Assembly (NCBI GenBank): GCA_000497125.2
Contig: CM035319.1
Span: 984,001 to 1,048,000 of the forward strand
Direction of reading: 5' to 3'
Length of the DNA stretch: 64,000 bases
Origin: Spironucleus salmonicida
Taxonomy: Eukaryota > Fornicata > Diplomonadida > Hexamitidae
Shown: positions 3,519 to 64,000 of the stretch, piece after piece
Numbering within the stretch: position 1 is the first letter of the stretch
Layout: every line of letters starts with the position of its first letter
Translations under genes and position numbers: made by a program
Notes under the pieces: generated by a model
Databases searched by the model: none
What the model was told of the DNA's origin: nothing
Seen by the model: only the letters and a program-made list of their open reading frames with translations

Positions 3519-6500
3519 ATGTCTGGAAGCTGTGATTTAAATTTATCCAATAATGGTTGCAATAATAATTATTCATGTACATCTCCTACTGCTAATGCAC
3601 GTTGTACACCATGTGCTCAAATTACTGAAGGATTTTATTGTAAATATTCAAGAAATGGAAATGTACGAAACTGCAAAAACTGCAATAGCTATTCATGCAC
3701 ACAATGCTTAGAGTTCTACTTGTTAGATGACACCGGACAGAACTGCTTTCCCAACTTCTGTTCCACTTACGTGAGCCAGTGCGCGAACGGCCAGGTCTGC
3801 CCGGCAAACTCGATCGACAGGTCCGACTGCCAGGCCTGCACGCAGAGCCAGGCCACGCCCTGCAAGTGCGGGAAAAAGGCCAACTGCTCGATCTGCGACG
3901 GCACCGGAAAAAAGTGCGGGGCCTGCCTGAAGGGCTTCGTGCTGGACGACGGGAACTGCGTGCTGGAGAGCAACATCTGCAACCAGTTCCGGCAGAGCAT
4001 CCTGTGCGATGACGGCTCCTACTGCAACGGGGACTTCGGGGACACGTGCGAGCTCTGCGCTAAGCTCCAGCTCAACCAGTCCTGCAAGTGCGCGAACGGC
4101 GAGGTCAAGAACTGCGTCAAGTGCGGTGCCGATGGCTGCTCGGCGTGCCTGGATAAGTACGCGGTGCAGTTCGGCCGGTGCCAGCTGAACACCTGCGGGC
4201 AGATCCAGAACACGCTGAACTGCGCCTTCAACCACCTCTGCAAGGACGGCTCCTCCCCGAACCAGGTCTGCATCGCGTGCGACGAGACCCAGCAGTGCAA
4301 CTGCGGGACCATCCTCGGCTGCAAGACCTGCGGGGATGCTATTAACACCTGCGGCTCCTGCTTCGTCGGGTACCACATCAAGGACGGCAAGTGCGTGAGG
4401 GATACTAACAGCTGCGGCGAGAGCTTCGACTCGGCGCTCTGCGACACCGGTTCCTACTGCAACGGTACCTTCGGCGTGAAGTGCATTGTCTGCACGTTCA
4501 TCAACTACAACAGTGCCTGCCGCTGCGGGGAGAACCAAATTCAAAACTGCACCGCCTGCACCACCGGAGACTGCACCGCTTGCAAGTTGGGACTCTACCC
4601 GGTCAACAACATCTGCTCGCCCAACACGTGCGTTGGTGGTCAGAAGTCGACGCAGTGTGCGGTGAACAACTACTGTCCGGTTACTCCCGCGGGCCAGACC
4701 ACGAACTGCCTGCTGTGCTCCGAGAAGTCCACCGTGGCCTGCAATTGCGGGGCTGAGGACAACTGCGCTACCTGCGATGCCGGACTCACCAAATGCAACA
4801 AGTGCCTGCGGGGATTCGAGTCTACAACCGCGGGAAAATGCACGCAGATCCCTAATATCTGCGACCAGAACGGGTCTTCTTCGCTGTGTTAGTAGGACAA
4901 CTTCTGCAGCGGCTCTTTCCTGGAGACCTGCAAAAGCTGTGCGAACATCACCACGGACCTTTCCTGCAACTGCGGTGGCAACCTGCTGCAGAACTGCGTC
5001 AAGTGCGACGGTTCTCTCTGCAAGAAGTGCCTCACCGGCTACCACCCCATCAAGGGCGTGTGCCAGGTAAATATCTGCGACAGGCAACTCTCCAACACCC
5101 AGTGCGCGAGCGGCTTCTACTGCAAGAAAGACAGCAAGGAGAACGACCCCTGCACAGTCTGCGACAAAAACCAGACCCAGCCCTGCAAGTGCGGCGTCGC
5201 CTCCAACTGCGCAACCTGCGGTATCACCCCCAGTACGTGCCAGGACTGCCTGTCTGACCTCGTGCTGGACCCTAGCACGTTGTCCTGCATTACGCAGCAG
5301 ACGGGTAGCAACGTCTGCAACTCCGAGAAAACCTCAGCAGGATGCTTCAACAACTACTTCTGCGACGGCAAAGAGAACGAAGCGTGCCAGTCATGCGTAG
5401 TCCTCCAGCAGGGCCAGAAGTGCAAATGCGATACGGCCCTGGTCGAGAACTGCCAGTTCTGTATAGGAACGGTGTGTCAGGCCTGTGTCCGGGGCTACGA
5501 GGCCATCAACGGCATCTGCGTCCCCAACAAGTGCGGCGACGAAGGGAAAAGTTGCCTGCCCGGATTCTTCTGCCCCACGGATGCAACAAAGGATATGTCT
5601 TGCCGCCCCTGCTCGCTGGACAACCAGGAGCTCTGCAACTGCGGAGCCGCCGCGCACTGTCAGTCCTGCACTTCGCTCAACAACCAGTGCCAGACGTGCG
5701 TCAGCGGCTTCACCCTCATCAACGGCGTGTGCGCGGTACCGCCCAACTGCAACGCGATTCTGCCCTGCCCCATCGGCCAGTACTGCAACAACCTGACCTG
5801 CGAAACCTGCTTAGACCAGCAGATCGCCTGCTCCTGCGGCGAGGCCGTGAACTGCCAGAACTGCGGCCAGCAGGGCGCCTGCCTGAACTGCATAAACGGC
5901 TGGTTGCAGGACGCGAACGGCAACTGCAAGATCCCCATCTGTACCATTCCCCCAGGCCGCGACAAGTACTGCGCCGGGCCCGAGTCGCCCCAGGACTGCT
6001 CCACGAACCCGCTCGTCATCAGCAGCATGCAGCACTCCTGCAACTGCCTGAAGACGCCAGATGGCCAGATTGCAGCAAATTGCGCGAACTGCGAGCCTGA
6101 TATCAATCAGTGCAAGCAGTGCCTCAACGACCACACGCTCATGAGCGGAATCTGCGTTTTCACGCCCCCAGGCTACAAGGGCAGCTGCGACGACCTCGGT
6201 ACCTCCAAGTGGTGCGCAGAGGGCCTCGGCTGCAAGTAGTACGGTCAGTGCATCAACTGCGCGACGCTCGACGTCGGAATGTCCTGCAAGTGCGCCGCCG
6301 ACACGCTCCAGCTCAACTGCGCCGAGTGCGACGGGAGCGGCTGCAAACGCTGCGTCGAGGGCGCGACCATGATCGAGGGCGCCTGCCGGGTCAAGTGCAC
6401 GAACGTGGCCCAGTGCTCCGACGGCGAGCAGTGCGACCTGGCCTAGCAGGTATGCGTCACCTGCGACGGAATGCAGTTCTGCAAGTGCGCGGCGAACCAG

Positions 6501-6788
6501 AACTGCCTGGGCTGCACGGTCGACAAGAAGTGTAACGGCTGCCTCGACGGGTACGTCCAGAACGTCCAAGGCTCGTGCCAGAACTGCGACGCGGGCTACG
6601 AGCTCATCCACGAGTTCCCCTCCGTGTGCGAGATCCTCCAGCAGACCAGCACCGCGCTGGGCCCCTGGGACGTGGTGGGCTGCGTCGCCGCCGGAGCGAC
6701 CATCGTGGCGATCGTGGGCTACCTGATCTACTACTACACGCACCGCCCCAAGAAGTTCTACACCCAGCACAACATGTTTAGCAAGTGA
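3519..6788 (+). CDS. Cysteine-rich membrane protein (VSP/CRMP-like), IR1 copy A
   Basis: A continuous 1089-residue frame once TAG/TAA are Gln (for example TAG TAG at 4891-4896, TAG at 6237 and 6444), ending at TGA 6786-6788. The ectodomain is a long array of CXXC-rich units (for example CKCGKKANCSICDG, CNCGGNLLQNCVKC) in the style of Giardia VSPs and Spironucleus CRMPs, which are surface coat or secreted proteins. A single membrane segment lies at about residues 1050-1072 (around VGCVAAGATIVAIVGYLI), followed by a short tail with RPKKFYTQH. The N-terminus (MSGSCDLNLSNNGC) is Cys-rich at once, with no visible signal peptide. The first ~200 bp are AT-rich and the rest GC-rich, with the switch near 3720. 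A diverged same-length copy lies tail-to-tail at 10688-13957. Confidence 0.9.
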
Positions 6789-6855
6789 GCGGTTTGGTTA
6801 CTCATTGCACACGGTGCGGGATGTCGCCGCGAGCGGACCGGGAGGGTTTGCGGCT

Positions 6856-8056
6856 CTAGGAGAAATGTGTAGTAGACACCACGGGGCGCGGGACTGTGCT
6901 TGCACTCGGCAACTGCTGCAGCCGATGCGTCCTGGGCGTACAGTAGCCTCCCGGGGAGCACGCTGCAGGCTTACGCCAGACTAGTCCTTTCGCACCATAG
7001 ACGCGCCTCGCTGCCCTGCATTGGTCAGGGTGCGGTTATGAATAGTTTTCAATTTGCCAATTTACGCCGTCGGCGTGCCCAGACGGCCGGTATATTGCTG
7101 TTTTATTAAGTTCGAGGACAGCCTCGGTGCTTTGCAACACGTGGATGGTCGAAACTCAATTAAATCATTCCCTTTGGTAACTTACAACTGCTATGCCTAC
7201 ACATCATAAGTAATTTAGCAGAGTAAAAAGAAAAAGCTTTCATAACGATACTGGCGTGAGAAATCACATGGATTATATAGCTAATGTTTGATCTTTCTAT
7301 GAATTACAGCGATGATTGTAACTAGACTACAATCTTATTTGCAATTTGATTCAGTAACTTTCATTTAATATATATCTTTAAAACAGCTAGAAAAGAGAAT
7401 AGGCATTTTCTATCGAAATAACTAAATCCATCTGATGAACTGAATATACATGAACTGATCCGAAGCTTCCTCTAATACTACACGTACTTCCTTTACACAA
7501 AGATTTTGTAGGACCTAGTAAAAATATTAAGTGATTAGTATCAAATATATGATTTTATAAAAATTATGAGGTTTAGAAGTTGTCATGGTGGTATTAGTTA
7601 ATATGGATAATTTTTTAGGAGAGGCAATAAATAAGTGTGCGCCATTTTTGGACGGACAGCCTGAGCCAGCACCCTCGCTGGCATGACTCCTCACCCAGCT
7701 CCCGGCTGCCAGCTCCATAACCGCACGAGCGCTTTGCGGGACCGGGCATACGAACAGGGTGCCAGCATAGCAAGCAGCCGCATATTCCGAAGCCACCCCA
7801 GCGCAATCCCCTAGCCTGGCCAAAGCACGGAAGCACGTAACTATGGGCTAGCTGCACACCAGCATGGGCAAATAGAGTTGCCGTTGGTGGAATTTTGCTA
7901 CCTCCGGCGCGGCCAGAGAAGGTAATTCTTCCCTCCGACTCGCATGCCGGCCAAAGGCGCCGCGGCGGGACCCTCGGCCTGGCGCAGCGGTATAGGGAAC
8001 GGAACTTTGACGGGAAACCTCAAGATACTCACCAGCCAGCTGGCATCGGGCACTTT
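6856..8056 (-). pseudogene. Possible decayed LSU rRNA 3' half, left arm
   Basis: Reverse-complement mirror of the candidate at 9420-10620, almost identical in sequence. On the minus strand, in order, it carries a helix-71-like GGTAGCAAAATTCC (about 7902-7889), a PTC-like GTTACCAAAGGGAA (about 7184), a sarcin-ricin-loop-like GGTGCGAAAGGACTAG (about 6996-6981) and GAGGCTACTGTACGCC (about 6950). The universal bases are altered, so if rRNA-derived it is not functional. The AT-rich piece between the first two motifs (about 7105-7640) is not rRNA-like. It lies just downstream of the cysteine-rich gene, in opposite orientation. Confidence 0.4.
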
Positions 8057-8129
8057 GCATGCGGGTCTGCCCACCGCTCCCCGTTTTTTCTGCGGCCCGA
8101 GTAGAGCCCGGTCTACGCGGCCCGCTCCT

Positions 8130-9334: not shown

Positions 9335-9419
9335 ATTATGGAGCGTAGGGTGTAGACCCGGCGGCGGGCTAGAGCGGAGCGCTGGATGGTTGCCATGCAA
9401 ACCAGGCAGACCCGCATGC

Positions 9420-10620
9420 AAAGTGCCCGATGCCAGCTGGCTGGTGATTATCTTGAGGTTTCCCGTCCAAGTTCCGTTCCCTATGCCGCTGCGCCAAGCC
9501 GAGGGTCCCGCCGCGGTGCCTTTGGCCGGCATGCGAGTCGGAGGGAAGAATTACCTTCTCTGGCCGCGCCGGAGGTAGCAAAATTCCACCAACGGCAACT
9601 CTATTTGCCCATGCTGGTGTGCAGCTAGCCCATAGTTACGTGCTTCCGTGCTTTGGCCAGGCTAGGGGATTGCGCTGGGGTGGCTTCGGAATATGCGGCT
9701 GCTTGCTATGCTGGCACCCTGTTCGTATGCCCGGTCCCGCAAAGCGCTCGTGCGGTTATGGAGCTGGCAGCCGGGAGCTGGGTGAGGAGTCATGCCAGCG
9801 AGGGTGCTGGCTCAGGCTGTCCGTCCAAAAATGGCGCACACTTATTTATTGCCTCTCCTAAAAAATTATCCATATTAACTAATACCACCATGACAACTTC
9901 TAAACCTCATAATTTTTATAAAATCATATATTTGATACTAATCACTTAATATTTTTACTAGGTCCTACAAAATCTTTGTGTAAAGGAAGTACGTGTAGTA
10001 TTAGAGGAAGCTTCGGATCAGTTCATGTATATTCAGTTCATCAGATGGATTTAGTTATTTCGATAGAAAATGCCTATTCTCTTTTCTAGCTGTTTTAAAG
10101 ATATATATTAAATGAAAGTTACTGAATCAAATTGCAAATAAGATTGTAGTCTAGTTACAATCATCGCTGTAATTCATAGAAAGATCAAACATTAGCTATA
10201 TAATCCATGTGATTTCTCACGCCAGTATCGTTATGAAAGCTTTTTCTTTTTACTCTGCTAAATTACTTATGATGTGTAGGCATAGCAGTTGTAAGTTACC
10301 AAAGGGAATGATTTAATTGAGTTTCGACCATCCACGTGTTGCAAAGCACCGAGGCTGTCCTCGAACTTAATAAAACAGCAATATACCGGCCGTCTGGGCA
10401 CGCCGACGGCGTAAATTGGCAAATTGAAAACTATTCATAACCGCACCCTGACCAATGCAGGGCAGCGAGGCGCGTCTATGGTGCGAAAGGACTAGTCTGG
10501 CGTAAGCCTGCAGCGTGCTCCCCGGGAGGCTACTGTACGCCCAGGACGCATCGGCTGCAGCAGTTGCCGAGTGCAAGCACAGTCCCGCGCCCCGTGGTGT
10601 CTACTACACATTTCTCCTAG
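9420..10620 (+). pseudogene. Possible decayed LSU rRNA 3' half, right arm
   Basis: Four stretches resemble conserved LSU rRNA landmarks in the right order. They are GGTAGCAAAATTCC at 9574 (helix 71, bacterial GGTAGCGAAATTCC), GTTACCAAAGGGAA at about 10292 (peptidyl-transferase region, GTTACC..GGGATAAC), GGTGCGAAAGGACTAG at 10480 (sarcin-ricin loop, AGTACGAGAGGACC) and GAGGCTACTGTACGCC at 10526 (3' end, GAAGCTACCGTGCGC). The 188-nt spacing between the second and third is close to that in real LSU. Differences in otherwise universal bases and an AT-rich segment at 9860-10290 argue for a pseudogene. I recalled the landmarks from memory, so this needs a covariance-model search. Confidence 0.42.
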
Positions 10621-10687
10621 AGCCGCAAACCCTCCCGGTCCGCTCGCGGCGACATCCCGCACCGTGTGCAATGAGTAACCAAACCGC

Positions 10688-13600
10688 TCACTTGCTAAAC
10701 ATGTTGTGCTGGGTGTAGAACTTCTTGGGGCGGTGCGTGTAGTAGTAGATCAGGTAGCCCACGATCGCCACGATGGTCGCTCCGGCGGCGACGCAGCCCA
10801 CCACGTCCCAGGGGCCCAGCGCGGTGCTGGTCTGCTGGAGGATCTCGCACACGGAGGGGAACTCGTGGATGAGCTCGTAGCCCGCGTCGCAGTTCTGGCA
10901 CGAGCCTTGGACGTTCTGCACGTAGCTATCCAGGCAGCCGTTGCACTTCTTGTCGACCGTGCAGCCCAGGCAGTTCTGGCTAGTCCCGCATTTGCACTAT
11001 GCCTCCCCGTTGCAGGCCGAGCAGACCTCTGTAAGAACGTCACAATATTACCCGTCCTCGCACGCGTCCAGACTGCTGCATTTAACGACGCAAAGCCCGT
11101 CGGCGAACGTCGCGCCGGGGACGCAAATCGCGCATTTCGCGCCATCGCATTTCGCGCAGTTCAGCACCAGGCGGTCATTAGCGCATTTGCAGGACATCCC
11201 CAGGCTCAAATTCGTGCACTCCACGCACTGCCCAAAGACCTTGCAGCCGAGGTGCTCAGCGCACCACTTGGAGGTACCTAGGTCGTCGCAATTTCCGGTG
11301 TAGCCTGGGGGCGTGAAAACGCAGATTCCGCTCATGAGCGTGTGGTCGTTGAGGCACTGCTTGCACTGGTCGATTTCAGGCTCGCAGTTCGCGCAATTTG
11401 CTGCAATCTGGCCATCTGGCGTCTTCAGGCAGTTGCAGGAGTGCTGCATGCTGCTGATGACGAGCGGGTTCGTGGAGCAGTCCTGGGGCGAGTTGGGCGC
11501 TGCGCAGTACTTGTCCCGGTCTGCGGGAATGGTGCAGATGGGGATCTTGCAGTTGCCGTTCGCGTCCTGCAACCAGCCGTTTATGCAGTTTAGGCACGCG
11601 CCCTGTTGGCCGCAGTTCTGGCAGTTCACGGCCTCGCCGCAGGAGCAGGCGATCTGCTGGTCTAAGCAGGTTTCGCAGGTCAGGTTGTTGCAGTACTGGC
11701 CGATGGGGCAGGGCAGAATCGCGTTGCAGTTGGGTGGAATTACGCACATTCCGTTGATGAGGGCGAAGCCGCTGATGCACGTTTGGCATTAAGTGTTTAG
11801 GGGAGTGCAGGACTGGCAGTGTGCGGCATCTCCGCAGTTGCAGAGCTCCTGGTTGTCCAGCGAGCAGGGGCGGCACGTTGTGAGCGTGGAGCCGCCGTCC
11901 GGACAGAAGAATCCGGGCAGGCAGCTTTTCCCGTCGTCGCCGCACTTGTTGGGGACGCAGATGCCGTTAATGGCCTCGTAGCCCCGGACGCATGCCTGAC
12001 AGTAGATTCCAGCGCAGAACTGGCAGTTCTCGATCAGCTGGGAATCGCACTTGCAGCTTTTCGCCTCCGGTAGGAATACGCAGGATAGGCACGTGTCGCT
12101 CTTGTTTCCGTCACAAAAGTAGTTGTTGAAGCACTCTGCGGACGACTAGGCAGCGTCGCAGATGTTGCTTCCGGTCTCCGGAATTACGCAGGAGAGCGTG
12201 CTGGGGTCCAGCACGAGGCCAGACAGGCAGTCCTGGCATGTATTTGGGGTGAGGCCGCAGGTGGCGCAGTTGGATGCGCCGCCGCACTTGCAGGGCTGGG
12301 TCTGGTTTTTGGCGCAGATCGTGCAGGGGTCGTTCTCCTTGCTGTCTTTCTTGCAGTAGAAGCCGCTCGCGCACTGGGTGTTGGAGAGCTGCTTATCACA
12401 TACGTTGACTTGGCACACGCCCTTGATGGGGTGGTAGCCGGTGAGGCACTTCTTGCAGAGAGAACCGTCGCACTTGACGCAGTTCTGCAGCAGGTTGCCA
12501 CCGCAGTTGCAGGAAAGGTCCGTGGTGATGTTCGCGCAGGTTTTACACTTGTCTAGGAAAGAGCCGCTGCAGAAATTCTCCTGAGTACAGAGCGAAGATG
12601 ACCCGCTCTAATCGCATATGTTGGGGATCTGCGTGCATTTTCCCGCAGTAGCCTGCTCAAAGCCCCGCAGGCATGTCGCGCACTTGGCAAAATTGTCATC
12701 ACAAGTAGCGCAGTTGTCCTCGACCCCGCAGTTGCAGGCCACAACCGACTGCTCAAAACACAGCAGGCAGTTCGTGGTCTGTCCCGCGGGAGTCACCGGA
12801 CAGTAGTTGTTCAGCGCGCACTACGTCGATTTCTGCCCGCCAAGACACGTATTTGGTGTACAAATGTTATTTAGCGGATACAAACCAGTCCTGCAAGCGC
12901 TGCAATTTGAATCGGTGCACCGAGTACAGTTTTAAATCTAATTTTGACCACATTTGCACGCACTATTGTAAGTTATCGCCGAGCAGGAAACGCACGAAAC
13001 GCCGAACGCGCCGTTGCAGTAATAGCCAGTATTACAGAGCGCCGAGTCGAAGCTCTCGCCGCAGCTGTTAGTATCCCTCACGCACTTGCCGTCCTTGATG
13101 TGGTACCCGACGAAGCAGGAGCCGCAGGTGTTAATAGCATCCCCGCAGGTCTTGCAGCCGAGGATGGTCCCGCAGTTGCACTGCTGGGTCTCGTCGCACG
13201 CGATGCAGACCTGGTTCGGGGAGGAGCCGTCCTTGCAGAGGTGGTTGAAGGCGCAGTTCAGCGTGTTCTGGATCTGCCCGCAGGTGTTCAGCTGGCACCG
13301 GCCGAACTGCACCGCGTACTTATCCAGGCACTCCGAGCAGCCATTGGAACCGCACTTGACGCAGTTCTTGACCTCGCCGTTCGCGCACTTGCAGGACTGG
13401 TTGAGCTGGAGCTTAGCGCAGAGCTCGCACGTGTCCCCGAAGTCCCCGTTGCAGTAGGAGCCGTCATCGCACAGGATGCTCTGCCGGAACTGGTTGCAGA
13501 TGTTGTTCTCCAGCACGCAGTTCCCGTCGTCCAGCACGAAGCCCTTCAGGCAGGCCCCGCACTGCTTCCCGCTGCCGTCGCAGATCGAGCAGTCGGCCTT

Positions 13601-13957
13601 TTTCCCGCACTTGCAGGGCGTGGTCTGGTTTCGTGTGCAGGCCTGGCAGTCGGACCTGTCGATCGCGTTTGCCGGGCAGACCTGACCGTTCGCGCACTGG
13701 CTCACGTAGGTCGAGCAGAAGTTGGGGAGGCAGGCGTCCGCGTTTGGGGATAGTAGGTAGAAATCGATGCACGTTCTGCAGACGTCGCCATTGCAGTTTT
13801 CGCAATTTCCGAAATGGAGCCGTCTGTTGCATTTGCAGCTGAATCCCTCCCTTAGATACCTGCACGGGGTGCATGTGGCGTACGGGTTTGGCGACATGCA
13901 GGAGTAGTTGTTTCTGCAGCCGTTATTGGACAGATTTAGGTCGCACTATCCTGCCAT
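10688..13957 (-). CDS. Cysteine-rich membrane protein (VSP/CRMP-like), IR1 copy B
   Basis: Mirror partner of the gene at 3519-6788, also 1089 residues, from ATG 13957 to TGA 10690-10688. The start MAGQCDLNLSNNGC matches copy A (Q is TAG). Long blocks are nearly identical (for example 13040-13720), others differ clearly (the N-terminal ~70 residues, the region around 12840-13010, and 10930-11280), and the last ~60 codons with membrane segment and RPKKFYTQHNMFSK tail are the same. Aligned positions exchange CAG with TAG or TAA, which supports the genetic code. No frame break remains once TAR is Gln. The mosaic of identical and diverged blocks suggests repeated gene conversion with copy A. GC-rich throughout, including its 5' end, unlike copy A. 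Confidence 0.9.
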
Positions 13958-42419: not shown

Positions 42420-42432
42420 ATAAAGTAGAAGC

Positions 42433-44013
42433 TCAGAGACGACTCGCCATGCAGAGGTATGCCATCAGCCCGATTCCGGTGAACACAAACACCAGTCCAG
42501 CGATCACCGCGAAGTGCGTGTAAATGTTGGAGAAGTCCGAGAGCAGCAGCACGCTTGGGAACGGAAATTCGTTTTCCGACTGGACGAAGTTGTAGAGGTT
42601 GGTGTGGTTCGCCACCATCTTCTCGTAAATCACAGCTCGCTCCGCCACGGTGCCGGGCATCGTAACCCCAAATGTATGGTCTTGATACGTTGATGTGCAC
42701 TGCAACTTGCCGTTGAACACGTAGTCGATGACGAAGCTGAACGCTATCTGCCGGGACTGGTACGACTCCGGCTAGACACCGAGGATGTAGTTCGCCACCG
42801 AGTGCCCTTGCGTCGAGCACTTTTCGGAGTCGTACGTCTAGATTTGCACGCAGAGCTCGTCGCGCCTAAAGAAGGCCTGAATGTTCTGGAAGCAGCTGAG
42901 CTTGGCCTCCAGGAGAACGGACTCCTCGTCCAGTATTACGTCGTTCTCGTCCCTGTAGGTCATGTAGCTGATGAGACTACCAGAACCGATAGCCTCGAAC
43001 CCTGGTATCGCGACATCGAGCCTCAATATGAACCCCACCTTATTGATGAACTGGTCCTTCGTGTTTATCTCCGGGGCGGACGAGTAGTTGAAGGCCTCCG
43101 TGATGACGCGCAGCTGGTTGTGCACGCTGACCGTGTTCTGGTTGCATTCTGTATGAGTAGAAAACATCACGTTGTTACTGAACGCCAGAATCTGTGTCGC
43201 GGAGATGTAGCCGACGGGCTTCAACTAGGAGTAGCACGGGCTGGCGATCGACAGGATGAGGTGCGGCTCAGCCAGAATAACTTGGTCCAGTTTGTTTATC
43301 TTCGTCACGAGGTGCAGCCGCGTCTGGATGGTCCGGTTCCGCTCGAAATGAACGAAAAATTCTTTGAAGGTGGCGACTTCGGCCGGGTCCGTCAGCGTGC
43401 TGAGCGGTTGTTTGAAATGCTTTGTGGCCTTCTGGTCGAACGCTTACGTGGAGTCGTAGTAGCCAGCCTCCCCGCTTACGCCCTGGACCCCGAAGGATCT
43501 CCACCGCTCCTCGGCGAAGTACTCGAATTTGACCACGGGTGCCGTGATCTGGCAGTCGAGCGGCGTGCCGTCCATCTGGAGGAACTCGTGGCCCGCCGAC
43601 CGGTTGTAGCGGAGCACCAGGTCGTCCCAGCAGTTGGTCGCGTTCATCTGCGTGTGCTGGATGGTCTGGACGGCCCCTGGGGACTCCAGGGAGCCCACCA
43701 GCTTCACCTGGTATGACAGCAGCGATTTCGCAGCGATGAGGGTGTATTTCGCTACATCTGAGGATAGGTCAAATACTATGATGTTTGGCACGCTCTGAAA
43801 GTACGTGAACTCTGAGTCTATGGTCTGGACCTTATTCGCTGAGTCAAGATACTCTAGCGAGCATGTTGACACGCGGCCATCAGCTGCTACGCAGAGCTCA
43901 TCGTTCTCAGGAGCCGGCGTCAACACCAATTTGAATATCTTCGATTACGTGTCACCTTCAAGTACTGCGTTGTCCTGGAAGCATCGTATTTCCTCTGCAA
44001 CAACCAGAAACAT
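42433..44013 (-). CDS. Type I membrane glycoprotein-like protein, IR3 copy A
   Basis: 526 residues from ATG 44013 to TGA 42435-42433 (Gln as TAA/TAG at several places, for example CYSQLKPVG and CVQIQTYD). The start MFLVVAEEIRC is a weak, short hydrophobic leader. The ectodomain of ~490 residues has spaced cysteines (CVAADGRVSTC, NCWDDLV, CFQNIQ, CVQIQTYDSEKC) and N-glycosylation sequons (NATN, NRSA, NYSS, NHTN). A single membrane helix (FAVIAGLVFVFTGIGLMAYL) ends with the tail CMASRL. No known domain is recognised. A near-identical gene of the same length lies inverted at 62415-63995. GC-rich. Confidence 0.75.
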
Positions 44014-44926
44014 TTTATTTAGTTTATACATTATCATTATAAATATAGATATTTACTCGTTATTTATCGAAGTTAAAATTATAATTTGTTTAAAAATAAT
44101 AAGTTGATAAAATATCATAAACTTTTTTATAGTTCATCTTATGATTGTTATTTAATTATTTAGTTAATAAATAAATAAAATTAGAATTCTAATATATTTT
44201 AAGATAAAGTTCATACTTATAAATTTAACTTTTAAAGATGTACTCGAAGCCTTTGTGATAAAATAATATTTAAATATTTTTGATTTTAAGAAAAGCTAAC
44301 TATTATAAAATACTTTATTCTTGAGATTTTAGAATTTTTGAGTATATAGCACAAGTAGTAATAATAATATATTTGTAAACTGATAATATTCTACAATTAT
44401 GCGATTCAAACTTCTCATAACAATAAAATTAAAGAAACATTCTACTATAGTTACAATAAAGTAATAATTCTAGTAAGCTTAACCAATATACTCGTAAATT
44501 ACTTATCCTATACTCGTAATACGCCTAATTAATGCAATAATTTAATTAATTTTTACCAGAGAACATTTTTAAGCAACAATAATGCTTATTTTATTTGAGT
44601 AAAGATATTCCTTAAAATATTAGGTTGAATTTAATAATTATATCTAATATTTATTCCCAAATGGTATAACGGTTAGCATTTCTGGTTTTCACCCAGGAGA
44701 TCCGGGTTCGATTCCCGGTTTGGGAGTAATTTTATTTTAGATCATTAAGACGTTATATTATTATTAACCAATAGTAATTTTTATATTGGTCATACGGGCG
44801 TACGTATTAATATTATTTAAATTTTAATTTGATTAACATTTATCACCCAATATTAACAATAAAGTCATATTAAATTAATTAATGTTTTACTTATTATTAT
44901 ATGTTGGTATGTATTATATAGTTAGA
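44014..44926. other. AT-rich spacer containing a tRNA gene
   Basis: Highly AT-rich DNA between two divergent genes. Apart from the tRNA-Glu at 44655-44726 no gene or clear motif is visible. Confidence 0.6.
44655..44726 (+). tRNA. tRNA-Glu (anticodon TTC)
   Basis: A 72-nt cloverleaf. Acceptor arm TCCCAAA pairs with TTTGGGA, with discriminator G. The anticodon arm TCTGG/CCAGG encloses TTTTCAC, so the anticodon at 44688-44690 is TTC. T arm CCGGG/CCCGG encloses TTCGATT, and the B box GGTTCGATTCC is canonical. The D arm has one A-C mismatch. No intron. It reads GAA codons and is not a suppressor for TAR. Confidence 0.93.
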
Positions 44927-47900
44927 ATGACATAAATTTGTAGCGCAGCCGCTGACTGCGGGTCCTCCCACTACAGTGTGTGCTATAGGACCACCAGTGG
45001 AACTATCCAGCTGGTTAATCTAAGATCTGAAAATGTAAGTTCTAAGTAACCATCGACTGCGTATGTCTCGATAGAATTCACTGACGTAAAGCAGCTCCCC
45101 CCAGACAGCATTTACTATGGATCATCACCACCAGATACGTTGAACTACGCATTCTTTCCTAACTGGAAGAACTACTTCTTCGATGCTGACGAGATAGTGT
45201 GCTATCCCAATGTTCCCTCAGTCCCTTCCAAGAACCACCGATCGATTCGGGTTACCTGCGCCAGTCTTTTTGAAGGGTTCATGTTCCAAGCAGTAAAAAG
45301 TGTTCGCTGCGCCTCCGGCTTGGACACCGTGGAACTAGCATTCTTAATACCAAGTGTGGCTCGCGCCCAGCACCTCGACTTCATTAAGCTTTGCGCGTAG
45401 TCGGTTGAGAAGAGAACTCCATGCAAAATAACATTGATATACGAAGGTAAAGCTGCACTGGGATCTGCTGAGGCAATAGGTGATTTTGGCGGATTTACAT
45501 TCGATAAAGCCACTAAGTAAAATCACGAATCATGCAACCTGGCAGCTAGTAATATTGACAATGTAGTTGATCAATTAGTACGTGCTGATTTTGTAGACTT
45601 GCGTTTCCACAATCGCCATCTACTTTACCAAAGAATCATGGAATTGAAAAATGATTATACTAGTGGTGATGTTTTCTTAGATCTTACTGGAATTTTTGAC
45701 CCGTTTCAATTCTATGGCCACTATGCCTTATATAGCTGGTTCAAAGAGCGTGGCACCACGGATGGATTTGAAAATGGAGCTAAATAATTCCTTTAAACAA
45801 TACCATTCTATGAAGACGGGGAACGCTGTTGCTCATAATATTTCCATTAAAGATAAATTTCGATGACATATGTTGATTTCAGATAATAAATGCTAGAATA
45901 TATTCGAAACTTTAATGATAGCTCTGAATTCAAGTTTATTAAGCCATGCCAGGAATTTAATAAACTGATAAAAATTGTATAAAACCGCAAAGTCCTTAAA
46001 AAAGTGCTAACATAGGCACTTTGTTTCGAAGACTTTAATAGTAATGAACGTATAGTGTGTATTTGTTAGCAACTAGTATCCAGCCATTCTTAATAATATC
46101 AGTCTTTATTATATAAAGCTGTCGCTGACATATCTTTATAATAATGGAAAAAACGACTTAACTCTAATTTTTTAATTATTATGGGCGAATTTCAAAGCTA
46201 AACAATTATAGAGAGTTATAAATTCAGTAATGATAAAATTGGAATAAGTTTACCTTCTGGTATTTACCAGCAAATATGTACAGCTGTCTGTGCTTAGCTA
46301 GCAAATAACTTTGGTTTATTTCTTCAATCAAATAAATGCAAAACATTTAAAATTACTGGAGGATTTTCTTAAAGTCCATTTTTACTAAACTAATTAGCTC
46401 AAAATTCATATATCTAACAAATTACCAAGAAAAGCAAGGATAGTTTGATATAACATATTAAAAAATCTCTCATTATTCCTCCTTATGAGATTGTTAAAAA
46501 TGCAATTGGTATGAAATAGTCTATGACAGATTCCGAAAATTTAATATATAAACACTACTATCTAAATATTGATAAAAGTGGTAATTTAAAGTATGAAGAG
46601 GTGAATGTTACTACTTCGCACAAGAATCGAGTCTGCATTGACGAGGGAACATCTGGATCACTGTTAAGCTATATACCAGCGGGTCATAAGTACACAGATG
46701 ATATGACTATCAATGATTTACCTGCATAACAGGATAGGATCCGTAAGATAGATGATGTTGAGTTTAAAGCTGGCACTAAAACTCCTTCATTTTGCGTGGT
46801 AGATATTCCAGCAGCCTATTAGCTAGCCACGTCTGGACTTTCGTTATAACATAGCGAAGATTTATCCAATTACCAATAAGTGTTCGATAAATATTTTACA
46901 TTATAGATGCTTCCAATTTCCGATATTCGTAGAATATTTCTTTTTGGAAATGTTAATAAAGATGCCTTATCTGAATAGTTATTATCTAATAATCATGATG
47001 ATGCAACACTGGTATAGAGTTCAAAGCCTATGAGTGCAAAGGAAAAGTTACTACGCAAAAAGTAAGAGGCACAAGCAAAATAAGAAGTTGAACCAGAACC
47101 AAAGTCAACCTCAGTCGAAGAGGTTGGGCAAAAGCTCACTGCAAAATAAAAGATGGCACTAGCAAAGTTATAAAAGACGTAACAATAGACTACGGATGTA
47201 TCACCGTCAACTAGTGGGGTCCATATTAATGAGTTCCTTATTGTAGATTATTGGAAGAGATATTTGTATCAAAACTAGCAAGTCTAATATCCATTAAACC
47301 CATAGATAGTGTAACGTTATACATTTAATGGTCAGTCTATAGAACTAAAATTACCAGTTGCATATTTCTATATTTCTCATCTTTCTCATTTTTATCATAC
47401 TTTTATATAGGACTAAGGTGATATGGTAAGTTATTACAATTAGCTTGGTCTTACGCTTACAGTTCCTTGCGCGGCAAAATAGTAGCATTTAACTTTTTTG
47501 CGAGAGTGTTGTAGAGTAGCGAATCTTCCTGATGATATAGTTTTTGTATATGAACCAAATTCAGCATTTTCTTTTATTTTTCATTAAGATCGACTTCGTG
47601 GTACCAATATATTTAAGGATGGATACGTTATTGTAGTTGATGTTGGCGGTGGAACTACAGATGTATCGCTGCTGAAGGTAGATACAGAAGGTGGTACATT
47701 TAATGTTATTAATTTTTATGAAATCAACTATGCAGGAAATAATGTCATAGACAAAGTTTTTGAGAACCTTGGTGTATAATCAGGACTGCTACAGTAACTT
47801 AGTTCAGGAACAAGATCACAATTTCGTGAGTCTGTGAAATCTTAAATTGAGCTTCTAACAGTATTAAACTCTTCTGATAGAAATGTTGAAGAGGTTATTA

Positions 47901-49015
47901 TCGTCATAGAAAGTAAGAAAAACAAAACTTCAGATGCTGAAAATTTGGCTTTAGAATAATTATATGCGATACTTGATGGCTTGTCATCATGTTATAATGA
48001 TTCAGAATAGAGATTAGTAAAAATTAGGGAGTATTAAATTAGCTCAAAGTTGTTTTATGATTCTATTGGTTTTGTTTAGTAATAGATTTAAGAAAGGACG
48101 TTAGATTTTTCTGATCTAAATAGAATACTTGAAACAAATTATAAGGTATAAATAGTCTGTGCTGGTGGAATGGGTTCATCTTTAAGCTTTAGATCCAGTT
48201 TTACGGAAAAAATTAAAACATTAAAATATAGTTACATAAAATTATAAGAGACTCCCAATTTCTAATCTGCTATTGCCAGAGGTGGATTATTCTTAAAGTC
48301 TGAAAAAGACTATGTTGATTTTGGTGCTCCGTTTATACAAAGGGGCAGTGAGGAAGAGGAAAAATTCATCGATAACAATGAAATTCTTATGAAATCTACT
48401 GTTCATATTCTTACTTTCAGATATATTTAACTAGCTCTCAGTATTCAAAAATCAACGTTTATAGAATCTGGTAAAAGATGGTCTTAAGGTGATGTTAATA
48501 TTACAGCTACTTCCTCATATAATGGAATTTCCTTTGCTGTTCATGTTGAACATAAATGGTCTGTCATAGGAACCACATCAAATTATTTTTATTTATGCCA
48601 AGTCCCTCTCGAATATATTAACTTGCTACACCCATAAGAAAATAGTACACCTGCTGGTTGGGTTTAGTATTTGTATGATATTAATATTACACTTTCAAAA
48701 CCTGATAATATATTAAACATTTTAACTGATATTGATAAAGACAAGAGACCTTTTGCTGCACTAACTGTAGATGTTAGTTTAAAAAACTCTTCGACTTGTA
48801 TAACTTCCAATTTTAACTTGTTTAGATATTTTCCTGTAGATTTATAATCATTATAGCTTGAAAAGGAAAAAGGGAAAATATTTATTTCATAATGTTGTGT
48901 ATATCATAATTTAGTACAGTATATAGATAATGTTAAAAAAAATTATGGTAAACATACAATACTATGTAAAAAATGTGTTTTAAAGTTACCTATATAGAAG
49001 TGGAAACTTAAGTGA
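44927..49015 (+). CDS. Hsp70/HSPA12-like double ATPase-domain protein, IR2 copy A
   Basis: 1362 residues from ATG 44927 to TGA 49013-49015. Two actin/Hsp70-type ATPase modules follow each other. Module 1 has a phosphate-1-like ADCGSSHYSVC near residues 8-18, a phosphate-2-like IGDFGGFTFD at ~184 and an adenosine-motif-like TGGFSQSPFL at ~477. Module 2 has LTVPCAAKQQHLTFLREC, the textbook VVDVGGGTTDVSLL at ~903-916 and VCAGGMGSSLSF at ~1077, without a clear phosphate-1 loop. Spacing fits the divergent HSPA12 branch rather than chaperone Hsp70. After residue ~1148 comes a C-terminal domain (SGKRWSQGDVNITATSS, INLLHPQENS, FNLFRYFPVD) that differs from copy B. Gln is mostly TAA/TAG. The first ~500 bp are GC-richer. 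Confidence 0.8.
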
Positions 49016-49035
49016 ATGAAAATAAATCATTAATC

Positions 49036-52000
49036 TCAAATAATTTTCCAATGTTATCCTGGTAATTAAACAACACATTTATTAAAAATAACAAGAGAGT
49101 TATCATGTTAGGCCTATAAATCAGAAATAAATTATGCTAACTTCGGGTAATAAATTGTGTCAGTAATAAATTTTTCCCCATTTTCAGAATCTAATTTAAA
49201 TCCTTTCATATCTAGTGGTATATATCTAAATAGATTAAAATTTTATGTTATTTTAAGTTTCGAATCACCAGCAATATTAACAGTGAAACAAATATTGCAA
49301 AATGGTTTTTTCATCGAATCTTCTCCTTATCCCACTAAAAGTGTAGTAAGAGGCTTTTATATATACGTTTCAATCGAATATACAAATTAAGGTACACCCA
49401 TTTATGTTATAGTTTCATTAGGATGTAATAGATTCACATCTTCTATAGGAATTCTGACTAAGTAAAAATAATGATCTGTTAATCCAAAAATTGAGTATGT
49501 ATGATTAACATGAATTATAAATTCAATGCCTTTATTCCAGCACTATACAAAATTATTAGCTGTTTATTAAGTCCATCGTTATCCACCTTAAATGATATCT
49601 GTTTTCTAATATTGTGACTATAAACCAGCATTTCTAAATGTTATAATTTGTAATTTACTTTCACATAAAATTTTGCTCTATTTAATGAATTTTTCCTCTT
49701 CCTCACTGCCCCTTTGTATAAACGGAGCACCAAAATCAACATAGTCTTTTTCAGACTTTAAGAATAATCCACCTCTGGCAATAGCAGATTAGAAATTGGG
49801 AGTCTCTTATAATTTTATGTAACTATATTTTAATGTTTTAATTTTTTCCGTAAAACTGGATCTAAAGCTTAAAGATGAACCCATTCCACCAGCACAGACT
49901 ATTTATACCTTATAATTTGTTTCAAGTATTCTATTTAGATCAGAAAAATCTAACGTCCTTTCTTAAATCTATTACTAAACAAAACCAATAGAATCATAAA
50001 ACAACTTTGAGCTAATTTAATACTCCCTAATTTTTACTAATCTCTATTCTGAATCATTATAACATGATGACAAGCCATCAAGTATCGCATATAATTATTC
50101 TAAAGCCAAATTTTCAGCATCTGAAGTTTTGTTTTTCTTACTTTCTATGACGATAATAACCTCTTCAACATTTCTATCAGAAGAGTTTAATACTGTTAGA
50201 AGCTCAATTTAAGATTTCACAGACTCACGAAATTGTGATCTTGTTCCTGAACTAAGTTACTGTAGCAGTCCTGATTATACACCAAGGTTCTCAAAAACTT
50301 TGTCTATGACATTATTTCCTGCATAGTTGATTTCATAAAAATTAATAACATTAAATGTACCACCTTCTGTATCTACCTTCAGCAGCGATACATCTGTAGT
50401 TCCACCGCCAACATCAACTACAATAACGTATCCATCCTTAAATATATTGGTACCACGAAGTCGATCTTAATGAAAAATAAAAGAAAATGCTGAATTTGGT
50501 TCATATACAAAAACTATATCATCAGGAAGATTCGCTACTCTACAACACTCTCGCAAAAAAGTTAAATGCTACTATTTTGCCGCGCAAGGAACTGTAAGCG
50601 TAAGACCAAGCTAATTGTAATAACTTACCATATCACCTTAGTCCTATATAAAAGTATGATAAAAATGAGAAAGATGAGAAATATAGAAATATGCAACTGG
50701 TAATTTTAGTTCTATAGACTGACCATTAAATGTATAACGTTACACTATCTATGGGTTTAATGGATATTAGACTTGCTAGTTTTGATACAAATATCTCTTC
50801 CAATAATCTACAATAAGGAACTCATTAATATGGACCCCACTAGTTGACGGTGATACATCCGTAGTCTATTGTTACGTCTTTTATAACTTTGCTAGTGCCA
50901 TCTTTTATTTTGCAGTGAGCTTTTGCCCAACCTCTTCGACTGAGGTTGACTTTGGTTCTGGTTCAACTTCTTATTTTGCTTGTGCCTCTTACTTTTTGCG
51001 TAGTAACTTTTCCTTTGCACTCATAGGCTTTGAACTCTATACCAGTGTTGCATCATCATGATTATTAGATAATAACTATTCAGATAAGGCATCTTTATTA
51101 ACATTTCCAAAAAGAAATATTCTACGAATATCGGAAATTGGAAGCATCTATAATGTAAAATATTTATCGAACACTTATTGGTAATTGGATAAATCTTCGC
51201 TATGTTATAACGAAAGTCCAGACGTGGCTAGCTAATAGGCTGCTGGAATATCTACCACGCAAAATGAAGGAGTTTTAGTGCCAGCTTTAAACTCAACATC
51301 ATCTATCTTACGGATCCTATCCTGTTATGCAGGTAAATCATTGATAGTCATATCATCTGTGTACTTATGACCCGCTGGTATATAGCTTAACAGTGATCCA
51401 GATGTTCCCTCGTCAATGCAGACTCGATTCTTGTGCGAAGTAGTAACATTCACCTCTTCATACTTTAAATTACCACTTTTATCAATATTTAGATAGTAGT
51501 GTTTATATATTAAATTTTCGGAATCTGTCATAGACTATTTCATACCAATTGCATTTTTAACAATCTCATAAGGAGGAATAATGAGAGATTTTTTAATATG
51601 TTATATCAAACTATCCTTGCTTTTCTTGGTAATTTGTTAGATATATGAATTTTGAGCTAATTAGTTTAGTAAAAATGGACTTTAAGAAAATCCTCCAGTA
51701 ATTTTAAATGTTTTGCATTTATTTGATTGAAGAAATAAACCAAAGTTATTTGCTAGCTAAGCACAGACAGCTGTACATATTTGCTGGTAAATACCAGAAG
51801 GTAAACTTATTCCAATTTTATCATTACTGAATTTATAACTCTCTATAATTGTTTAGCTTTGAAATTCGCCCATAATAATTAAAAAATTAGAGTTAAGTCG
51901 TTTTTTCCATTATTATAAAGATATGTCAGCGACAGCTTTATATAATAAAGACTGATATTATTAAGAATGGCTGGATACTAGTTGCTAACAAATACACACT

Positions 52001-53127
52001 ATACGTTCATTACTATTAAAGTCTTCGAAACAAAGTGCCTATGTTAGCACTTTTTTAAGGACTTTGCGGTTTTATACAATTTTTATCAGTTTATTAAATT
52101 CCTGGCATGGCTTAATAAACTTGAATTCAGAGCTATCATTAAAGTTTCGAATATATTCTAGCATTTATTATCTGAAATCAACATATGTCATCGAAATTTA
52201 TCTTTAATGGAAATATTATGAGCAACAGCGTTCCCCGTCTTCATAGAATGGTATTGTTTAAAGGAATTATTTAGCTCCATTTTCAAATCCATCCGTGGTG
52301 CCACGCTCTTTGAACCAGCTATATAAGGCATAGTGGCCATAGAATTGAAACGGGTCAAAAATTCCAGTAAGATCTAAGAAAACATCACCACTAGTATAAT
52401 CATTTTTCAATTCCATGATTCTTTGGTAAAGTAGATGGCGATTGTGGAAACGCAAGTCTACAAAATCAGCACGTACTAATTGATCAACTACATTGTCAAT
52501 ATTACTAGCTGCCAGGTTGCATGATTCGTGATTTTACTTAGTGGCTTTATCGAATGTAAATCCGCCAAAATCACCTATTGCCTCAGCAGATCCCAGTGCA
52601 GCTTTACCTTCGTATATCAATGTTATTTTGCATGGAGTTCTCTTCTCAACCGACTACGCGCAAAGCTTAATGAAGTCGAGGTGCTGGGCGCGAGCCACAC
52701 TTGGTATTAAGAATGCTAGTTCCACGGTGTCCAAGCCGGAGGCGCAGCGAACACTTTTTACTGCTTGGAACATGAACCCTTCAAAAAGACTGGCGCAGGT
52801 AACCCGAATCGATCGGTGGTTCTTGGAAGGGACTGAGGGAACATTGGGATAGCACACTATCTCGTCAGCATCGAAGAAGTAGTTCTTCCAGTTAGGAAAG
52901 AATGCGTAGTTCAACGTATCTGGTGGTGATGATCCATAGTAAATGCTGTCTGGGGGGAGCTGCTTTACGTCAGTGAATTCTATCGAGACATACGCAGTCG
53001 ATGGTTACTTAGAACTTACATTTTCAGATCTTAGATTAACCAGCTGGATAGTTCCACTGGTGGTCCTATAGCACACACTGTAGTGGGAGGACCCGCAGTC
53101 AGCGGCTGCGCTACAAATTTATTTCAT
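49036..53127 (-). CDS. Hsp70/HSPA12-like double ATPase-domain protein, IR2 copy B
   Basis: 1363 residues from ATG 53127 to TGA 49038-49036. Codons 1-1148 are practically identical to copy A (start MKQICSAA against MTQICSAA), including both ATPase modules and even synonymous sites. From 49684 downwards the sequence changes to a C-terminal domain only distantly related to that of copy A. Shared landmarks are GQRWTQ, HYFYLVRIPIEDVNLLHP, FNLFRYIPLD and KCVVQLPGQHWK, with roughly a third of residues matching by eye. In Hsp70-type proteins the part after the ATPase recognises the client. The gene is tail-to-tail with copy A, with 20 bp between the stops. Its promoter region differs from that of copy A. 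Confidence 0.8.
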
Positions 53128-53262
53128 TTTGAAAAGTGGAAGTTAATAATATGATAATATTATACGCTAATCAATCAAGTTATACCAAATTAAGATATAA
53201 TTTCAATTTATGTTTTATCACTCAATATTGTTAAATACTATTAAATAATGATAACCATCAAA

Positions 53263-54357
53263 TCATAAATTAATAAGCCTCGTAAGCTCTAGTAAGCTCT
53301 CTATCTATACACCTTCGACCTCGAGAGTTTGCAAGATATCTACAAAAATACGTTTATCCTTCCTCATAGCTCCATCAACCATAAAAATACAGCTTTAACA
53401 GCACGCCAGCCTTACCTCATCGTATCCTGATTTGGAGCATTGCCGCAATCCCTCTAAAAGCAGTTCTAAATTTGCACCGCTAAAGTTCTAAACAACTACA
53501 AATGGACAGAGATTTATCACACGTCCCAAAAACAAGCATGCCTGCACCTAAAACAGCGAATTATACTTTTTGAGCCCTGCAACTGCCTGATTAAGAATGT
53601 CACCTTATATATAAAAATTAGCGTTTTTAGGGTCCAAACTGAGCATATCGTTCAAATACTGAAAAGATACCGCTAATAATCCTGTATCCTGGTTAGCCTT
53701 AATGACATCTAGAAGCTCACGACTGATTTTTCCGCTTTCGCTGACTGTCTCGATGCTGATGCGCGCTATTAGGTAGCAGGCGTTTAGAACGTGCTGCAGC
53801 CCCTCGATTTTTGCGGCGCTGAACTCCTTGATGTACTACAGTGCCTTTTCGTAGAAAATTGACTTCTAGTCTTTGATCAAATTCACGTCCTCTGTGAGGA
53901 CTTGAAAACACTGTGAAAGGATCGGAAAGTCGTTGTAGAACTGCAGAATGAAGGTCGTGAAGTCGTCCAAAAGCTCCGAATTGGCGTTCTGAAGCGCCGA
54001 GAGTGAGCCGTAATTTTGCGTGAAATTGGCTATAATTTGGGCTATAACTACGCGGAATTCGGCGTTCGCCGGGTTCCTAAAAAAGGTGTTCAGGACATTA
54101 AAGTTCACCTGTGATGAGAAGAACTCGACGGTCGCCAGGGGAGATTTTGCGTGCGAATCGAGCTGGTTAAGCGCCTCATGTAGGGACTCCTTCGTGAGGT
54201 TTTTGGCATTATATTCGTTCAGATGATTATTGAATTTTTGGAAGAAAACGGGGTCGTGGGGGGATGAAAACGTAGTATTTGGTTGCGGGAGAGGGTTTTC
54301 CTTGATATCACGGAAATACAGGAACTGGTTAGTCGAAAATGCAGTATCGAGCGGCAT
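53263..54357 (-). CDS. Armadillo/HEAT-like helical protein, 364 aa
   Basis: ATG 54357 to TGA 53265-53263. It is all-helical with repeating hydrophobic patterns of ~40 residues (EFRVVIAQIIANFTQNYGSL, GLQHVLNACYLIARISIET, LLAVSFQYLNDMLSLDPKN, VQACLFLGRVINLCPFVVV, LLLEGLRQCSKSGYDEVRLA), like an ARM or HEAT solenoid such as importin-alpha-type or exchange-factor proteins. I cannot place it in a family. The 5' part is GC-richer with CAG, and the 3' part more AT-rich with TAA/TAG. Its stop lies 136 bp from the start codon of IR2 copy B, on the same strand, upstream of that gene's ATG. Confidence 0.65.
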
Positions 54358-54476
54358 TTTTTAAATTGCGGAAAGCTGTGCAAAAATATATAATAATAAA
54401 TAATATATATATATAATTCTAATGATTTTATAATATTATTATTCTATAATAATAAATACATAATTTTTAGTAGAAA

Positions 54477-58796: not shown

Positions 58797-60297
58797 AGTG
58801 AAATATTGTTTTTTCACTCTATGCTTAATTCTGCAAGCGATTTTAAAGACATTGTAGTAATTGAAAGTTGAAACGAATCTTTTTGAGATATTTCAACGGA
58901 AAGAGTATTTTATGGCTAGATATTTAACTATGGTTAAATTGGTGGCAAAGTGTAGTGTCTGCGTAGCTAGGTCTTGAAGTCTTTTAGTTTTAGTTTAATT
59001 CTCATTTTTGCTATGTGTTTTTAGTAAAATATTTAAATGATGAAAGTTACTTCCTAAAACAATTTAATGATGTTTAATAATTGTTTGAGGAATTTATTTA
59101 GTTTTTATTATTAATATTTTGTATAGTTTACTGATTCAAACATATGTTAATATAAGGAATTACTCTATAATAATAATTTAAATTAAGTTATTTAAATATA
59201 CTTCGAAAAGTTTTATTACTAATGTGAAATTTTTCAATGTATAGAAATAGAAAATTCTACTTACATTCAGTATTTATGTAATAGTTATATTTATGTAAAT
59301 CTAAGTAAATAAAAATATTATATGATAAATATGATTTAGTTTAAGGTTTCCAATGTATAATTTGTGAGAAAATTTAATGGCTAATTAATAAGTTTTACTG
59401 AAAAAGATTAATGTGAATAGCAATTTCAATTCCTAATTTATGATTAAATAGAAATTCTTCCAAATCGGTACTCGAACCCGGATCTCCTGGGCGGAACCAG
59501 AAATGCTAGCTGTTATACCATTTGGGATTACAGATATTTCATTTAATATTAGTTCATAATTCAATTTTAAAAGTTATGCGAATGTTTAATCAAAATTAAT
59601 TATATCATATATTACTCAATCACTTTAGCTTATAGAATCCAATGCATGCATAACGATATTAACCTGAGACAGTTAAAATGTATCGTGAGTCTTAAGCTTT
59701 CTTCGTGAGCAGGAATCATCCACATTAAACTATTCGATATGAACAGGTGGGAATGTGTAGTTCCTAAGTAGTTTTTTATACTGTGATTTAAAATTATGGA
59801 GCTTTAGTTTCATTTATAAACACGTATAAGTATAGTATTATTATTAAATGAAAATAATATATTAGTTAGTTTTGCAAATTTATAATTTGTCTATATTTTC
59901 AATAATAAATTATTCTATCATTTATTAAATATCACAATTCTTGTAAAATTTTATAAAAATATATTATATAGTGATATATATGTTCATTAAAACATACTTA
60001 TATTATTAAAAAATATTAAATAGTGTAGAAAGCAAAATAACATTAAATATATTATATTTAAACTCCCCTCTATTATTTAGCTAATCGTAAAAAATGCCAG
60101 TTTATCTTCATAATATTTGAGCATAAAATTTATTAAAACATGACTCAGCCTATACTATTCTAACTGCCCTACGTTATTAACCTTCAAAAACAGCAATATC
60201 TCTAGCAAAATCATCGGTGTAATATTCTCTTTATACATACATATAAATAATATTATTAACCATTCATTTCCCCATAATTTGCTTTAGAAACCTACTA
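58797..60297. other. AT-rich spacer with a decayed tRNA
   Basis: AT-rich DNA. The only recognisable item is the tRNA-Glu-derived sequence at 59458-59527. A slightly GC-richer, uninterpretable patch lies at 58860-59000. Confidence 0.55.
59458..59527 (-). pseudogene. tRNA-Glu pseudogene
   Basis: The minus strand matches the functional tRNA-Glu at 44655 over its whole length with decay. The anticodon loop TTTTCAC is shortened to TTCCGC (so no TTC anticodon), the T loop/stem TTCGATTCCCGG has become TTCGAGTACCGA, the 3' acceptor strand is TTTGGAA instead of TTTGGGA, and the D loop differs. The 5' acceptor and anticodon stem are preserved. It is a non-functional copy. Confidence 0.85.
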
Positions 60298-63995: not shown

Positions 63996-64000
63996 GCTTC

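Follow-up and report, generated by a model that had tools for sequence, protein, structure and literature searches.

Inverted gene pairs under ectopic gene conversion are already known elsewhere, and here we describe a candidate of this kind, the tail-to-tail genes A and B of the diplomonad Spironucleus salmonicida, a fish parasite. The pair occupies positions 44927-53127 of the window, by which we mean the whole stretch of 64,000 nucleotides that was analysed (contig C4:984001-1048000, in an assembly of 14.47 Mb and 37 contigs). Among the closest described systems are a flip/flop on Saccharomyces chromosome XIV and the human Y palindrome P6, the latter larger in scale than the A/B repeat; inverted hsp70 pairs were reportedly studied by Bettencourt and Feder in 2002 and by Nikolaidis and Nei in 2004. 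In Saccharomyces, the inverted gene pairs are nearly identical, as A and B largely are, and the authors attribute this to gene conversion; inversion between the 4.2-kb homogenised repeats is proposed as a by-product of occasional crossover, and no cause of the homogenisation is identified there (PMC9731477). Complete genes together with their promoters lie inside those repeats, which are separated by 24 kb, whereas the A/B arms stop in frame around a centre made of two diverged gene ends; both orientations have been demonstrated in Saccharomyces, whereas A/B is known in its assembled orientation (PMC9731477). The hsp70 genes of Drosophila and hsp70-7/hsp70-8 of Caenorhabditis are likewise adjacent inverted genes with gene conversion, and the Drosophila pairs often stand tail to tail, with conversion noted at least among transcribed sequence; these are canonical Hsp70s, whereas the A/B protein is at best a remote relative with a C terminus that would escape conversion (PMC2871787, PMC3966223). 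The P6 arms are held above 99.9% identity by conversion (mean tract of ~2 kb), inversions being rare (56 conversions versus 3 inversions in the same chromosome set), and the P6 spacer is not described, in the accessible part of the source, as two diverged ends of arm genes, unlike the A/B centre (PMC3723533).

Two further systems bear on the comparison. Giardia muris, also a diplomonad, has seven identical VSP pairs (tail to tail in five cases, head to head in two) at distances from 1.66 kb; unlike A/B, whole genes are identical there, they encode surface antigens, and other genes or pseudogenes lie between them (PMC7641422). At yeast MAT flip/flop loci, inverted-repeat recombination exchanges the expressed gene, the 5' end of MATa1 forming part of the repeat in Ascoidea rubescens (PMC6692504); this switching by inversion is called regulated (PMC9731477), and the inner genes are alternative cell-type regulators, unlike A/B. 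The A/B locus was not seen among the papers listed on Spironucleus gene conversion or diplomonad inverted repeats, as far as titles and the openings of abstracts go, nor is it described in the accessible portion of PMC9509377; the main text of PMC3916229, in the form available, lacks the terms "hsp70," "heat shock," "inverted," "palindrom," and "gene conversion" and has "hsp" once. Locus and protein appear to be undescribed in the literature searched.

Identical arms, diverged ends

The long frames at this locus are visible only when TAA and TAG are translated as glutamine: under table 11 the longest listed open reading frame (ORF) has 103 amino acids, and under table 6, which we adopt, both genes are intact from ATG to TGA. 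When 44927-48369 is compared with the reverse complement of 49685-53127, a single mismatch is found in 3,443 bp, at 44931, the second base of codon 2 (residue 2 is T or K). The longest identical run in the arm is 3,438 nucleotides, compared with a maximum of 271 in 2,000 shuffles of the alignment columns, and none of the 1,147 third codon positions differs. With no difference over 3,438 bp, divergence has a 95% upper bound of 0.09%, about equal to the allelic heterozygosity of 0.09% given for the species (PMC9509377). The identity begins exactly at both ATGs and ends inside the frame, in codon 1148 of both genes, so that the arm makes up the 5' 84% of each.

The remaining ends are very different. 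Of 215 aligned C-terminal residues, 80 are identical (37%), with an alignment score of 404, whereas 500 shuffles gave at most 38.5, and the landmarks LLHP, FNLFRY, and KCV.LP..W are present in both proteins; at the DNA level, 303/645 nucleotides differ (53% identity), with changes spread over the three codon positions (110, 79, and 114 of 215), and 33 of the 78 degenerate codons for identical residues differ. Judged by this alignment, the last 215 codons of A and B are genuine but old homologues. With no difference at 1,147 third positions in the arm and such synonymous divergence in the C-terminal parts, the pair must be old and the arm young. A plain recent duplication is excluded as the origin of A and B, because no single duplication history gives an identical arm together with synonymously diverged C termini. 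The initial annotation, which had described a tail-to-tail pair identical even at synonymous sites, switching inside the reading frame at 48369/49685 to C termini only distantly alike, and had argued that a simple recent duplication would not account for this, is borne out in each of these respects (the stops, on opposite strands, lie 20 bp apart). Its further view that the arms are homogenised while the ends are kept different is supported too. The coordinates are collected in Table 1.

Table 1. Coordinates of the A/B pair, its flanks, and a second inverted repeat (window positions; translations in code 6)
Feature	Position	Strand	Remarks
Gene A	44927..49015	+	1,362 amino acids; starts MTQICSAAADCGSS, C-terminal end KLPIQKWKLK
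Gene B	49036..53127	-	1,363 amino acids; starts MKQICSAAADCGSS, C-terminal end QLPGQHWKII
Left arm of inverted repeat	44927..48369	+	A codons 1-1147 and first bases of codon 1148; 1 mismatch (44931) to right arm
Right arm of inverted repeat	49685..53127	-	B codons 1-1147 and first bases of codon 1148
C-terminal part of A	48368..49012	+	215 codons; 80/215 aligned residues as in B
C-terminal part of B	49039..49686	-	216 codons
Gap between stop codons	49016..49035	.	20 bp
5' flank of A	44728..44926	+	tRNA-Glu (44654-44727) to ATG; without clear similarity to B flank
5' flank of B	53128..53262	-	neighbouring ORF 53263-54513 (-) to ATG; TTTTCAAA directly before ATG
Second inverted repeat, left arm	3743..8071	+	tail-to-tail genes, Cys-rich membrane protein type; mosaic identity with 9405-13733
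Second inverted repeat, right arm	9405..13733	-	partner of 3743-8071

Upstream of the arms, no clear resemblance remains. Directly before the ATG, gene A has TAGTTAGA and gene B has TTTTCAAA; the flank of one gene ends with a short A-run and that of the other does not. The local alignment score of the two 5' flanks is 54, compared with a best of 56 in 200 shuffles, which gives no clear similarity. The tRNA-Glu gene directly upstream of A has a degenerate inverted copy at 59437-59551 (~83%), which is not called by ARAGORN.

A model of ectopic gene conversion

Taken together, we put at roughly three in four the probability that A and B are an old inverted gene pair in which the 5' 84% has been homogenised by ectopic gene conversion while the 5' flanks and the C termini have stayed distinct. 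In this model, a gene with Hsp70-type ATPase motifs would have been duplicated long ago into a tail-to-tail pair. Between the inverted copies, ectopic conversion would have replaced the coding sequence from the ATG through codon 1147, probably more than once, and the homogenised stretch would then evolve as a single sequence. The last 215 codons, at 53% nucleotide identity, would be too diverged to be good conversion substrates, and selection probably holds them apart. Each gene would retain its own promoter and its own C terminus, and the shared part may be thought of as one ATPase engine carrying two different C-terminal ends. Now and then, recombination would end in a crossover instead, and the 1,315-bp centre would be inverted as an unregulated by-product.

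Several observations are consistent with this model. For a pair of this age, the arms are much too similar (0/1,147 against 33/78), and the identity ends abruptly at homologous positions after a tract longer than chance would give. Because the inner junction lies in frame at homologous positions, homologous recombination fits, and random template switching does not. The left edge, at both ATGs with flanks of no clear similarity adjoining, we also count in favour of conversion. Conversion as the process is thus argued from the homologous, in-frame junction, from a neighbouring mosaic pair, and from seven short-spacer inverted repeats in the surrounding 264 kb.

These neighbours were found by a self-comparison of 264 kb around the locus, which returned 27 inverted alignments of at least 500 bp. 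Seven inverted repeats, of which A/B is one, combine arms of 1 kb or more with spacers below 5 kb; six are at least 99.6% identical, and the seventh, the second repeat of Table 1, stands at 90.6%. In that pair, identity ranges from 60 to 100% across 100-bp windows, and six identical tracts are each longer than any in 2,000 shuffles, a pattern that looks like a conversion mosaic. One identical tract of 1.4 kb (6558-7958) extends beyond the end of the left gene at 6788. Spacer ends (at most 700 bp per end) were compared for nine of the 27 alignments, the seven and two with larger spacers, and strong homology was found only in A/B (protein z=59, DNA z=18.7); in two of the other eight, similarity continues outside the arms (DNA z of 15 and 25).

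A number of points weigh against our model. No spacer-end z above 3.4 was found among the other eight repeats, so that most neighbours look like plain inverted duplications and not like A/B, and identity within an outer inverted repeat that encloses the pair is not significantly mosaic (a run as long as its longest came up in 16 of 2,000 shuffles). The A/B flank comparison is itself slightly off its null (z ~3.1). That conversion was repeated is something we infer; the same picture would result from a single large conversion, of recent date, between copies that were still similar. Base composition does not help either: the GC content at third codon positions (GC3) of the A/B arm is mostly low (0.17-0.34) and raised only in the first ~600 bp (0.48-0.51), and therefore GC-biased conversion left little trace in most of it. 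This contrasts with the GC-rich arms of the neighbouring repeats; among the seven short-spacer cases, A/B being one of them, arm GC exceeds spacer GC in six. GC is in any case not a clean marker for conversion, since GC3 climbs more steeply (~0.2 to 0.86) along the IFT122 homologue at 20433-25037, a gene present once in the window; on these values we rejected GC-biased conversion as a marker for the arm. Finally, the 264-kb stretch may be unrepresentative of the genome because it is GC rich (41.7%, compared with a published mean of 33.5% [PMC9509377]).

Only two copies found

Is there a reservoir from which other ends could be drawn? The initial annotation had suggested a search for further copies with the same ATPase part and other C termini, and none beyond A and B turned up in the genome. 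Searches of the organism's own genome with the arm DNA, with the whole protein, and with the C-terminal part of A (E <= 10) each returned A and B only. These searches found no donor reservoir for cassette-type variation (one expression site, many donors), and neither at the DNA nor at the protein level did they yield a third paralogue as a possible source of a C terminus. Since only A and B were returned, no outside donor is known.

What kind of protein?

The naming of the pair as Hsp70/HSPA12-like was not confirmed. The PF00012 match reaches 15.4 bits (E=0.0057) against a cut-off of 20.6, covers only residues 897-929, and sits around a phosphate-2-like motif; across the genome, PF00012 gives 15 matches, 13 above the cut-off, and A and B are the two below it, at 17.6 bits each. 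Motif-like strings occur in B at residues 572 (DEGTS), 874 (VYEPNSA), 905 (DVGGGTTD), and 1077 (VCAGGMGSS), an order that we take to resemble phosphate 1, connect 1, phosphate 2, and adenosine of Hsp70, and a degenerate set follows the same order at 10, 171, 186, and 476. The two halves of B align weakly, with a score of 63 that 7 of 300 shuffles reach. The A/B protein may thus carry two Hsp70-type ATPase modules in tandem, of which the first is degenerate, with a C-terminal domain behind them, but its assignment to Hsp70 is weak, and any likeness to HSPA12 is putative. If the weakly supported family assignment were right, the C terminus might have a role in client recognition.

A protein search with B 600-1363, in which the best 7,999 candidates by shared words were scored, found gene A only, as did a search with the A/B alignment (7,724 candidates); in these searches, gene A is a cluster of four member sequences. 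Against solved structures, whole B gave no match at E <= 0.1, and its second half matched DnaK only, over 39 residues (best E=0.47). The N-terminal half had five matches up to E=10, led by a designed protein and by proteins with leucine-rich repeats (best E=0.0055), which we judged to be chance or compositional. For B 573-1363, modelled from a two-sequence alignment, and B 1-599, modelled from the single sequence, AlphaFold reached a mean predicted local distance difference test score of only 28 and 36, respectively, and the models were not usable. In database searches, then, the protein is an orphan beyond this genome, possibly with tandem Hsp70-type ATPase modules. Elsewhere in the genome, six Hsp70 genes stand in a row (C2:1414739-1427793) with equal family scores and a spacing of ~2.24 kb; homogenisation is perhaps a possibility there.

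Alternatives to continuing conversion

Could the locus be a switch? The initial annotation had pointed out that inverting the centre would swap the C-terminal part between two upstream regions, and the geometry supports this. A crossover inversion of 48370-49684 would be expected as a by-product of conversion, and inversion at A/B is plausible by analogy, because P6 inversions are rare beside conversions and inversion in Saccharomyces is proposed as a by-product. Such an inversion would leave both proteins unchanged except for residue 2 (T/K), which would travel with the 5' flank, because the arms encode the same residues; for the same reason, we rejected the idea that inversion alters protein specificity. 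In a functional two-state switch, the arms would recombine at a useful rate, invert the centre, and let two differently regulated 5' flanks exchange C termini. The arms are indeed long and identical, the flanks do differ in the A-run, and a probable initiator element reported for this species consists of As ahead of the start codon (PMC3916229). Yeast mating-type loci also have an inverted-repeat flip/flop, once with a repeat covering the 5' end of a gene (PMC6692504). Yet inversion gives the same two proteins, only two C termini were found in the assembly and there is thus no repertoire for switching, and among 20 window frames scanned, a subset of the frames, Pfam named no family of recombinases or integrases. 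Strong spacer-end homology is missing from the other eight inverted repeats examined, so that inverted repeats evidently arise here without a switching function, and given the short-spacer repeats and one clear conversion mosaic nearby, the A/B architecture needs none. We therefore regard the proposal of a switchable recognition system as unsupported and a functional, regulated switch as improbable; the differing flanks make a promoter swap testable, not likely. We would be just as surprised if the locus proved to be a two-state invertible diplomonad locus and its protein a new branch of the Hsp70 superfamily, with a double ATPase and ends that can be exchanged.

Other histories must be weighed against repeated conversion. 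It is possible, though we consider it unlikely, that the 5' 84% of one gene was overwritten with the other in one recent event, a conversion or a copy-and-replace, and that no concerted evolution continues: the arm is one unbroken tract without older sub-tracts, and low GC3 is kept in most of it. However, 5' parts as diverged as the C termini (53% nucleotide identity) would hardly permit homologous recombination to start, and the exact register at both ends argues for a similarity long maintained. Long inverted repeats are difficult to assemble, and the published assembly had Illumina polishing, so different loci or haplotypes might have been joined or the arms made identical by consensus and polishing; against such an artefact, both flanks and both C termini are unique and distinct, a fold-back would give symmetric flanks and no pair of homologous diverged ends, and, if this is the published assembly, PacBio reads with an N50 of 14.6 kb at 161x can span the 8.2-kb structure, the contigs having been checked against optical maps at chromosome scale (PMC9509377). 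We consider an artefact very improbable. Still further down the scale, and close to negligible, is a recent duplication followed by very fast local diversification of the C termini through positive selection or targeted mutagenesis. The boundary is sharp and inside the frame, as this would have it, but synonymous positions differ too, the changes fall on all codon positions as in old divergence, and a mutator restricted to ~650 bp per gene would be required.

Surroundings of the locus

The outer inverted repeat (42428-43983 / 62445-64000, or C4:1025344-1027983 / C4:1046445-1049084) is 98.6% identical over 2.6 kb and encloses the A/B pair and ~18.5 kb, so that nested inversions are conceivable. 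Its genes have a GC3 of 0.73-0.78 and no Pfam match above cut-off, for which reason a HAP2-like identity of the outer pair (42433-44118/62415-63995) was dropped; one frame has a sub-threshold match to an I-TevI DNA-binding domain (E=0.15). A larger inverted repeat of 14.4 kb (C4:951567-965978 / C4:972171-986581; 99.3% identity, 6.2-kb spacer) enters the first 2.6 kb of the window with its second arm. A tandem array with a period of ~1.85 kb lies at C4:1117775-1129894 (overlapping self-alignments 99.4-99.8% identical), long TAGG repeats occur in the genome, the first among those listed being on C3, and a tandem 5S rRNA array on C9 has at least 16 matches (47 of 290 candidates scored). At the A/B locus itself, a hairpin RNA arising by read-through over the gap between the stop codons is conceivable from the layout.

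Implications

The mechanism that we propose is a known one, and the useful twist is that conversion would halt within the reading frame, so that the two genes keep different ends. Under repeated ectopic conversion, A/B would show clearly that conversion can be limited to one portion of a gene, and the sequence lets one read where the tract starts and where it stops. If the two-state locus were true after all, the 1.3-kb centre would flip, each C-terminal domain would alternate between two promoters, and conversion would be kept high because the flip is useful. This parasite has many inverted repeats around the A/B locus, and, if inversion is common, diplomonads may serve as a natural setting in which to learn how frequently such repeats flip when no dedicated recombinase is known.

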